Shown: piece after piece, positions 41,453 through 43,225 of the stretch
Numbering within the stretch: position 1 is the first letter of the stretch
Layout: every line of letters begins with the position of its first letter
Made by a program: the position numbers and the translations under genes
Notes under the pieces: model-generated
What the model was told of the DNA's origin: nothing
The model's database searches: none
The model's input: only the letters and a program-made list of their open reading frames with translations
NCBI GenBank assembly: GCA_937864815.1
Contig: CALMJY010000047.1
Span: forward strand, 1-54,421
DNA length: 54,421 nucleotides
Direction: 5' to 3'
Origin: an uncultured Bacteroidota bacterium
GTDB taxonomy: Bacteria; Bacteroidota; Bacteroidia; Bacteroidales; VadinHA17

Positions 41453-42766
41453 CTATTTGAATAGGTGTTTACTCAACAGTCTGAGTGCATCAACCTTATT
41501 TTTTGTATCAATAAGCAATGACAGGCTGTAAGGACTGCCTCCATATGATATCATTTTAAGAGGAATTGTATTCAGAGCTTCGAAAATCTCAGGTGCTGAT
41601 CCTGTTCTTTCCGGCCTGAAGTCGCCAACTACGCAGATAATTGACAGGTTTTGTTCTATTTCCACAGCTCCGAGTTCTCTTAGTTCCTTCGCAATCTCAT
41701 TAATATAACTTGCATTATCAATTGTAAGTGATACCGATACTTCTGATGTCGATATCATGTCAATAGGTGTCTTGTATGTTTCGAAAATTTCGAATACTTT
41801 CCTGAGGAATCCGTATGCCATCAGCATCCTGTCGGACCTGATCCTCAATACTGATATACCATCCTTGGCTGCCACTGCCTTGTAATCCTCCCACCTGCAG
41901 TTAGCAGTAATAAGAGTGCCTACATCTTCAGGTTCCATTGTATTTTTGAGCCTGACAGGAATATTTTTTTCACGTGCAGGATTAACACTTGAAGGATGAA
42001 GTATTTTAGCTCCGAAATAAGCCAGTTCGGCTGCTTCATCAAATGAAATTTCTCTTATGACTTTTGTATCCTCAACAAACCTGGGATCATTATTATGAAA
42101 TCCGTTTATGTCTGTCCATATCTGTATTTCAGATGATTGTATGGCAGCCCCAATTATTGATGCTGTAAAATCACTTCCGCCTCTTTTAAGATTATCAATC
42201 TCTCCATGAGCATTTCGGCAGATAAATCCCTGTGTAATTATTATATTCTCCTTCGGACATTTTCTGAGTTCTCTTTTCAGGTTCTCCTCTATATAGAAAT
42301 AGTCAGGTTCCCCGTCCTTATCGATCCTCATAAAAGTAAGCGCCGGGAGCAGTGCTGCCCTGATATTTTTCTCTTGCAGCAGCATGTGAAGGAGAGAGGT
42401 TGATATAAGTTCACCCTGTGCAAGAACCTCCTTTTCCTGGAGTTTTGTGAATGCCCCTGGAGTATAGTTTCTGATTTGTTCAAAATGAGTATCAATAAAT
42501 TCATGACCTGATTTTCTGAATTTTTCAGTCTCATATAATTCATCTACTACCTGGTGATATTTAGTCCTCAGCTGCTCATTTTTTTTTGATGCTTCATCTT
42601 TCCTGTCAGCATAAAGCAGATCTGCAATTTCAACAAGGCTGTTGGTAGTCCCGGACATTGCTGAAAGCACAACAATCTTTTGTTCACTATCACTGATTAA
42701 AGGTATCAATGCTCTCATCCTGTCAGGATTTCCAACAGAGGTTCCTCCAAATTTCATTATTTTCAT
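41453..42766 (-). CDS. lysC: Aspartate kinase
   Basis: Monofunctional aspartokinase, 437 residues. MKIMKFGGTSVGNPDRMRAL carries the KFGGTSVG motif; LKRGGSDFTASIIGAAI and WTDINGFHNNDPRFVEDTKVI the nucleotide and Asp sites. Two ACT domains form the C-terminal third (about 300-437; PIDMISTSEVSVSLTID). It phosphorylates aspartate, the first step to lysine, diaminopimelate, threonine and methionine, and it feeds aspartate semialdehyde to the carboxyspermidine genes near 52 kb. The 5' leader looks like a transcription attenuator with a Lys-containing leader ORF, which would be its main control besides ACT feedback. Confidence 0.96.
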   Translation of the reverse strand: MKIMKFGGTSVGNPDRMRALIPLISDSEQKIVVLSAMSGTTNSLVEIADLLYADRKDEASKKNEQLRTKYHQVVDELYETEKFRKSGHEFIDTHFEQIRNYTPGAFTKLQEKEVLAQGELISTSLLHMLLQEKNIRAALLPALTFMRIDKDGEPDYFYIEENLKRELRKCPKENIIITQGFICRNAHGEIDNLKRGGSDFTASIIGAAIQSSEIQIWTDINGFHNNDPRFVEDTKVIREISFDEAAELAYFGAKILHPSSVNPAREKNIPVRLKNTMEPEDVGTLITANCRWEDYKAVAAKDGISVLRIRSDRMLMAYGFLRKVFEIFETYKTPIDMISTSEVSVSLTIDNASYINEIAKELRELGAVEIEQNLSIICVVGDFRPERTGSAPEIFEALNTIPLKMISYGGSPYSLSLLIDTKNKVDALRLLSKHLFK

Positions 42767-42784
42767 AATGTTCTTTTTAATTAT

Positions 42785-42813
42785 AAAAAAACCTGCATTC
42801 TTCTGCAGGCCTT
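42785..42813 (-). terminator. Attenuator terminator hairpin in the lysC leader
   Basis: On the minus strand AAGGCCTGCA-gaagaa-TGCAGG is followed by seven T residues (42791-42785). With G-T pairs and the first T residues the stem reaches 10 bp. It lies 18 bases upstream of the lysC ATG and downstream of the promoter box, so it would stop transcription before lysC. Confidence 0.8.
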
Positions 42814-42860
42814 GTTATCTAATAATATCTGACTAAACATTAAAAAGATAATGCAGGCCT
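42807..42860 (-). promoter_or_regulatory. Putative antiterminator stem of the lysC attenuator
   Basis: The 5' arm AGGCCTGCATTATCT (42860-42846) pairs with the 3' arm AGATAACAAGGCCT (42820-42807): AGGCCT with AGGCCT and TTATCT with AGATAA, 12 pairs around a small internal loop. The 3' arm contains the AAGGCCT half of the terminator stem, so the two structures exclude each other. The 5' arm is codons 18-22 of the leader ORF. Confidence 0.65.
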
Positions 42861-42911
42861 GAAAACCATATGCTTAATACACCACGATATCTCTTTCTTT
42901 CCTTTATTCAT
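42840..42911 (-). CDS. Putative lysC leader peptide
   Basis: A 23-codon ORF between the promoter box and the terminator. The peptide starts MNKGKKEISWCIKHM and has Lys at positions 3, 5, 6 and 13; aspartate-family residues (Asn, Lys, Ile, Met) make up most of its first half. The last codons (18-22) form the 5' arm of the antiterminator, and the stop codon follows at once. This is the geometry of a leader peptide: a ribosome held at the Lys codons leaves the arm free, and one that reaches the stop codon covers it. Translation is inferred, not shown. Confidence 0.5.
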   Translation of the reverse strand: MNKGKKEISWCIKHMVFRPALSF

Positions 42912-42929
42912 AATAAATAAAACTGCCAG

Positions 42930-42937
42930 CAAAAATA
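42930..42937 (-). promoter_or_regulatory. -7 promoter box TATTTTTG for lysC leader
   Basis: Exact TAnnTTTG match on the minus strand, 18 bases upstream of the leader ORF start. It would give a transcript of about 155 bases before lysC. No clear TTG at -33. Confidence 0.5.
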
Positions 42938-43048: not shown

Positions 43049-43132
43049 GCCCAGATGGCGAAATTGGTAGACGCGCTAGTTTCAGGGACTAGTGTCAGCA
43101 ATGATGTGCAGGTTCGAGTCCTGTTCTGGGCA
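43049..43132 (+). tRNA. tRNA-Leu (CAG)
   Basis: 84-nt class II tRNA. The acceptor arms GCCCAGA and TCTGGGC pair fully; the anticodon stem CTAGT/ACTAG encloses loop TTCAGGG with anticodon CAG. The T arm GCAGG-TTCGAGT-CCTGT and a variable arm are present. Discriminator A; CCA is not encoded (ACA follows). It reads CUG codons. Confidence 0.96.
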
Positions 43133-43141
43133 CATCCACCT

Positions 43142-43225
43142 GCCCAGGTGGTGAAATTGGTAGACACGCCAGCTTGAGGGGCTGGTGCTCGCAAGGGTGT
43201 GCAAGTTCGAGTCTTGTCCTGGGCA
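43142..43225 (+). tRNA. tRNA-Leu (GAG)
   Basis: 84-nt class II tRNA nine bases after the first. Acceptor GCCCAGG/CCTGGGC, anticodon stem CCAGC/GCTGG with loop TTGAGGG and anticodon GAG, T arm GCAAG-TTCGAGT-CTTGT. CCA not encoded. It reads CUC and CUU codons. Probably co-transcribed with the CAG isoacceptor. Confidence 0.96.

Follow-up and report, generated by a model that had tools for sequence, protein, structure and literature searches.

The lysC gene of an uncultured Bacteroidales bacterium is probably preceded by a ribosome-mediated transcription attenuator, which would tie the gene to the amount of charged lysine tRNA available. That it is lysine which is sensed is suggested by the codon content of the leader, by the operon partner of lysC and by parallel leaders at other genes of the same genus.

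Parts of the lysC leader

The window, i.e. the whole stretch of DNA analysed (54,421 nucleotides), belongs to a genome of 348 contigs; the closest named relatives of its lysC come from metagenome bins of Bacteroidales. Its lysC gene lies on the minus strand (41453..42766) and encodes an aspartate kinase of 437 aa (TIGR00657, 298.1 bits against a cut-off of 208.7). The best E-value was obtained with the model of lysine-sensitive aspartokinase 3, yet the score was under the cut-off of that model (399.8 versus 455). In the window lysA does not adjoin lysC, and an amino-acid permease gene comes next on the same strand. Two divergent tRNA genes (43049-43225, plus strand) stand directly upstream of the lysC promoter; two divergent tRNA genes are likewise located upstream of lysC in the locus L011.

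All parts of the leader are on the minus strand. The TATTTTTG box (42930..42937), recognised by its sequence, fits the consensus of the -7 type promoter element of Bacteroidota. In relatives, 15-25 bases separate the end of the box from the leader start codon; the box was the anchor for extracting the regions, and its conservation is therefore not independent evidence. The leader ORF (42840..42911), identified by its sequence and by frame conservation, has 23 codons and reads MNKGKKEISWCIKHMVFRPALSF, with the ATG at 42911 and the stop codon TAA at 42842-42840. Lys occupies codon 3 (AAA, 42903..42905), codons 5 and 6 (AAG AAA, 42894..42899) and codon 13 (AAG, 42873..42875), which is the final Lys codon ahead of arm 1, with a gap of 12 bases. 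Arm 1 (AGGCCTGCATTATCT, 42846..42860) is the 5' arm of the antiterminator and coincides with codons 18-22 of the leader ORF. Arm 2 (AGATAACAAGGCCT, 42807..42820), the 3' arm of the antiterminator, is common to antiterminator and terminator. The intrinsic terminator (42785..42810) was recognised by its sequence and pairing energy, and consists of a hairpin of 7 pairs (42810-42791, -10.9 kcal/mol) and seven T (42791-42785), with 18 bases between the seven T and the lysC ATG at 42766. These parts had been listed in the preliminary description, which agrees with the minus-strand sequence base for base and position for position. The fold of the window leader was mildly better than that of its shuffles (z = -2.06; 9 of 200 shuffles equal or better), so the case rests on conservation.

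To model the ribosome, every base was masked as far as 9 or 12 positions beyond the A-site codon. When it was placed at Lys codon 3, 5, 6 or 13, the window leader folded into the antiterminator, and when it was placed at the stop codon, the terminator was formed. Without ribosome, the best equilibrium fold was the terminator form. The earlier claim that the two structures exclude each other is borne out by the shared arm 2 and by these masked folds. The leader combines the features taken to mark an attenuator: an appropriately placed leader ORF, at least two Lys codons ahead of arm 1, an antiterminator that excludes the terminator, and an intrinsic terminator before the gene.

In the proposed mechanism, transcription would start a few bases past the TATTTTTG box and the ribosome would enter the leader ORF at once. 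Translation initiation in this lineage is as a rule independent of Shine-Dalgarno pairing. When charged Lys-tRNA is scarce, the ribosome would stall at Lys codon 3, 5, 6 or 13, and arm 1 would stay free to pair with arm 2 before the 3' arm of the terminator is made. With the antiterminator formed, RNA polymerase would continue into lysC. When lysine is ample, the ribosome would reach the stop codon in or near arm 1 and cover arm 1, and the terminator would form. The transcription start, the translation of the ORF, the lysine signal and the termination in the cell are all predicted.

Conservation of the leader within the genus

The 5' region of lysC was read in 90 genomes (30 loci and 60 further stretches). 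The same genus contributed 56 regions from 62 genomes, our own included; among the six genomes left out, the sole match in five was weaker and of the thrA type, and one had its lysC cut by the contig end. Across the family, the lysC protein had a match in 113 of the 117 genomes, some of these matches being to the related thrA only. The leader element was found in 45 of the 56 same-genus regions. It was absent in the other 11 (L028, L119, L120, L124, L131, L133, L135, L139, L140, L142 and L143). The 45 leaders were picked by the presence of the terminator, which is thus found in all 45 by selection and is absent in the other 11. Whether close relatives keep the leader ORF, the arms and the terminator had been named at the outset as a test of the attenuator, and the outcome was positive in these 45 regions. 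The promoter box is retained in L119 and L120, but between it and lysC a long inverted repeat, unrelated to the leader and with T's at its end, stands in place of the leader. In L119 this repeat is GAGGCTGTCTCAAAA...TTTTGAGACAGCCTC; the inverted repeat of the two loci is perhaps a mobile repeat.

A covariance model (R1) was built from those same 45 sequences and searched against the family and the order with strict filters, candidates being scored up to a cap per genome. Within the family, R1 matched one site per genome in 45 of 117 genomes, which are the 45 that supplied the model. Each site lies at lysC and each genome belongs to the one genus; one additional weak match lies on the opposite strand of the same lysC place. 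In the order, 2 of 295 genomes were matched, both of the same genus, which has three members in that set. As far as a strict-filter sequence model can tell, the element appears to be restricted to one genus. By eye, the same element was not found in 34 regions of other genera. Of seven sister-genus lysC regions (reference not counted), six carry such a terminator. An ORF with one Lys in L160 and with three in L168, both from other genera, ends near an arm complementary to the terminator. Different short ORFs, one with KHFKHF, followed by a terminator of the GGCCTGCA type, were seen 5' of lysC in L158, L160 and L168.

The reading frame of the leader is conserved. Over up to 51 bases before arm 1 in the 45 sequences, 7 stop codons fall in the ORF frame versus 69 and 93 in the other frames. 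In the 28 leaders whose start codon lies 17 codons ahead of arm 1 (the 17-codon class), codon differences are conservative in the ORF frame (mean BLOSUM62 of -0.01 versus -1.07 and -0.86, given without a null). A qualifying ORF, defined by an ATG or GTG start and an end between -6 and +45 of arm 1, is present in 38 of 45 leaders versus 369 of 1800 dinucleotide shuffles. The seven leaders without it are L012, L014, L026, L122, L128, L137 and L033; the start position reads CTG in L012 and ACG in L014, and L033 is cut by the contig end. The stop codon lies 2-5 bases ahead of arm 1 in L036, L118 and L136.

The two arms fit each other within a species. Own arms pair at -15.5 kcal/mol versus -13.7 kcal/mol when swapped across species (n = 44, with L024 left out as it was missed by the terminator pattern; 0 of 2000 permutations). 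Matched sets of arms include ATCTT/AAGAT, CATCATTT/AAATGATG and CTGTT/AACAG. On a fixed alignment, column-wise pairing gave 81.8% versus 80.5% paired cells (27 of 500 shuffles), and 99 of 500 shuffles were as good in the column covariation score of the arms. The column-wise signal is perhaps weak because the loop length varies. When the arm partners were slid by 1-3 columns, 31-47% of cells paired. The terminator stem is almost invariant, and covariation was not found in it on the same alignment. The covariation check proposed for both stems came out in favour of the arms when they were swapped between species, was weak column by column, and gave nothing for the terminator.

The frame, arms and spacing kept over 45 species, together with the His and Trp counterparts described below, speak against a plain terminator that is accompanied by chance complementarity and a spurious ORF. 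The modest fold z of the window leader and the one in five shuffled leaders that carry such an ORF would agree with a plain terminator; conservation largely contradicts this explanation, and we consider it extremely unlikely. A translation-independent RNA switch, e.g. a lysine riboswitch or a protein-bound antiterminator, would explain why arms and terminator are present regardless of the ORF, and why the arms of L012 and L014 pair well (-12.4 and -18.9 kcal/mol) despite their CTG and ACG starts. However, frame and stop placement are strongly conserved, and no Rfam family matched the leader at the gathering score or concerned it up to E = 1; such a switch is very improbable.

Lysine codons, predicted switching and the signal

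At least two Lys codons are present in 35 of the 38 ORF-bearing leaders and at least three in 28; the remaining three have one Lys (L121 and L125) or none (L037). Codon counts from start codon to arm 1 in a set of 35 leaders (545 codons) show the strongest enrichment for Lys (101 versus 59.6 in shuffles), followed by His (37 versus 14.8) and Leu (71 versus 44.5), all these scores being inflated by the kinship of the leaders. Among 15 representatives with less than 65% identity, Lys reached 41 versus 24.9 (0 of 2000 shuffles reach it) and His 14 versus 6.8 (7 of 2000 shuffles reach it). Among the 28 leaders of the 17-codon class, 19 have Lys at codon 3, 18 at codon 6, 13 at codon 7 and 17 at codon 13, and AAA and AAG interchange at the Lys positions. 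The Lys codons of the lysC leaders are scattered, with no run like that of His at hisG.

In 22 of 30 loci (L008-L037), lysC is closely followed by a putative lysA on the same strand, and the gap between the lysC and lysA matches is 7-18 bases, lysC stop codon included. The pair is found in 58 of 74 loci once partly redundant loci are added. The lysA gene (diaminopimelate decarboxylase) was named by its sequence in L061 and not via a family search. The lysC-lysA pair points to lysine as the signal and away from threonine and methionine.

Folding was also calculated across the genus. In equilibrium folds of the whole leader, the terminator was below one half in 13 of 37 leaders when the ribosome stood at the last Lys codon and in 14 of 37 when it stood at the first. 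It was above one half in all 38 leaders with the ribosome at the stop codon, and in 29 of 38 without ribosome. For most leaders, the switch is not seen at equilibrium. A co-transcriptional version, in which the leader is folded before the 3' arm of the terminator exists, as in the order of transcription, was adopted after the equilibrium result was known. In this version, arm 1 held the 5' arm of the terminator in 34 of 37 leaders with the ribosome at the last Lys codon and in 34 of 37 at the first. Without ribosome it was held in 33 of 38. With the ribosome at the stop codon it was held in none of the 38, a result that is partly trivial because the ribosome masks arm 1.

In this model, the untranslated leader is predicted to be mostly read through, i.e. 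default-on. In a classical attenuator, a protector (1:2) hairpin makes the polymerase pause and leads to termination if the leader is not translated. The lysC leader has no well-supported hairpin of this type, so its untranslated state is predicted to be on, unlike that of the trp attenuator. A small hairpin just ahead of arm 1 was weak (128 of 5000 permutations equally good). The conserved 5' end (CTCCCTGAT) could pair with arm 1 more strongly than its shuffles (0 of 200 as good), but swapped 5' ends were as good in 3538 of 5000 cases.

The same data bear on the possibility that the leader is a translated attenuator whose signal is not lysine: general translation or another amino acid, for example through the His at codon 14. 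This His is found in 20 of 28 leaders of the 17-codon class and lies 9 bases ahead of arm 1; 17 of 21 hisG leaders have their final His at the same distance from the arm (arm start set by motif). Together with the enrichment of His, the occurrence of some leaders that have His yet no Lys at codon 13 and the predicted read-through of the untranslated leader in 33 of 38 cases, this would suit a non-lysine signal. On the other hand, the 28 leaders with at least three Lys codons compare with a single His in 22 of 38 ORF-bearing leaders, none in 10 and two to four in 6; nine ORF-bearing leaders have Lys but no His. The lysC-lysA arrangement makes lysine the natural signal, and the bases of codon 14 may serve the weak small hairpin with arm 1. 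A signal other than lysine is unlikely. A lysine attenuator that is default-on, with a second input by the conserved His codon or by loss of leader translation generally, has a slim chance of being right. The attenuation mechanism as first proposed for lysC is supported by the conservation in 45 of 56 regions, by the lysA gene behind lysC in 22 of 30 loci, and by the His, Trp and single Thr leaders of the same design in the genus.

Parallel leaders and relation to known attenuators

At hisG, a script found a His leader in 21 of 24 loci (L198-L221; own genome L214), for example MYYKTTSHHHFHFCFQAR followed by the stop codon. These leaders have 3-5 His (mean 4.2) and 0.57 Lys per leader; the last His lies 9-15 bases ahead of a conserved arm, and the terminator lies 43-47 bases past the arm start. 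The hisG arms pair at -14.8 kcal/mol versus -14.3 kcal/mol when swapped (3 of 2000, n = 22). At trpE, a Trp-rich leader before a strong terminator, for example MVNTNKYWWWRILPVKPWR followed by the stop codon, was present in 9 of 9 full-length loci examined, from 12 found (L308-L316; own L315). In the six trpE loci measured, the 5' side of the terminator can pair around the leader stop codon (-12.5 to -21.6 kcal/mol), and this stop codon is 38-49 bases ahead of the terminator. Like the lysC leader, those at hisG and trpE carry codons for the pathway product in a short ORF, ahead of an arm that can pair with the terminator on its 5' side. The codons at hisG and trpE form runs or near-runs (HHHH, WWW), whereas the Lys codons at lysC are scattered, and the arm and terminator sequences differ. 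The codon set of the lysC leader is less concentrated than the hisG or trpE sets. As leader codons follow the pathway (His at hisG, Trp at trpE), lysC fits the series.

At thrA, a Thr leader was found in 1 of 20 regions (L190:714-794, 7 Thr in 26 codons, MRNFGLNTTTSTTGTGTIPVLRGCCV followed by the stop codon), with a terminator behind it and a weak antiterminator (-9.6). None was found in the other 19 regions (19 genomes), two of which have just 64 and 211 upstream bases. A second match of the filter, in the L193 thrA region, was rejected as not Thr-rich. By eye, a short hairpin of the TGCATCCTGAGGATGCATTTT type was seen near the presumed transcription start in 13 of 20 thrA regions (L178, L181-L184, L186, L187 and L192-L197), with no leader ORF recognised. 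A leader was not seen by eye at dapA in 18 of 20 loci (two were not parsed) or at leuA in 16 loci. For dapL, two upstream regions were inspected and no leader was seen; the search matches were mostly other aminotransferases.

The lysC leader was compared with Rfam models. No Rfam family matched the window leader at the gathering score, and up to E = 1 no family concerned the leader in L246 and L011, where weak matches fell outside it. The lysine riboswitch (RF00168) gave no covariance-model match in the window (gathering score) or in L246 and L011 (E = 1). There was no T-box match to the lysC leader in the window, L246 or L011, and the lysC leaders of L246 and L011 were unmatched by His_leader (RF00514). 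Against three hisG loci, RF00514 matched two below its gathering score (32.7 and 28.4 versus 49 bits). Bacteroid-trp RNA (RF01692), which we take to be linked to a trp leader, had no match in the lysC leader.

The attenuators of enterobacteria (trp, his, ilv, phe and others), as described in the relevant part of PMC1183508, share the ORF with end-product codons and the competition of antiterminator and terminator. The lysC leader differs from them in that it would sense lysine, its gene encodes aspartate kinase and its host belongs to Bacteroidales. According to the excerpt of PMC2864571, Bacteroid-trp RNA is an element of Bacteroidetes. A lysine riboswitch precedes lysC in other bacteria (Shewanella; excerpt of PMC2659441); it binds lysine directly and shares with the present leader the placement before lysC. 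For Sinorhizobium, a leader-peptide role is suggested for SEP5, which has six Thr codons and three Lys codons and is encoded in the 5' UTR of a gene of the aspartate pathway (PMC10117765). SEP5 is unlike the lysC leader in being Thr-rich, in belonging to a different gene and in that the passage describing it contains no attenuator structure. In the sections concerned, lysQ of Lactococcus is listed under predicted RNA-triplex regulation (PMC4833913), the lysine operons of Actinobacteria are described as having no conserved RNA structure upstream (PMC1262725), and clues of leader-peptide attenuation before amino-acid operons are reported for a flavobacterium, with 5' elements of pheA and hisG named (PMC9723704). 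In excerpts of the open PubMed Central literature, a lysine attenuator or leader of lysC (aspartate kinase) was not found, and the corresponding passages of PMC7366714, PMC11955535, PMC4833913, PMC1262725 and PMC9723704 contain no lysine leader for aspartate kinase.

The mechanism is classical; what is unusual is that it would sense lysine. In this Bacteroidales genus the ribosome appears to serve as a lysine sensor, and seemingly also as a sensor of histidine, tryptophan and, once, threonine. If this is true, ribosome-mediated attenuation would extend to lysine, and parallel leaders within a single lineage would allow codon spacing and default state to be compared.
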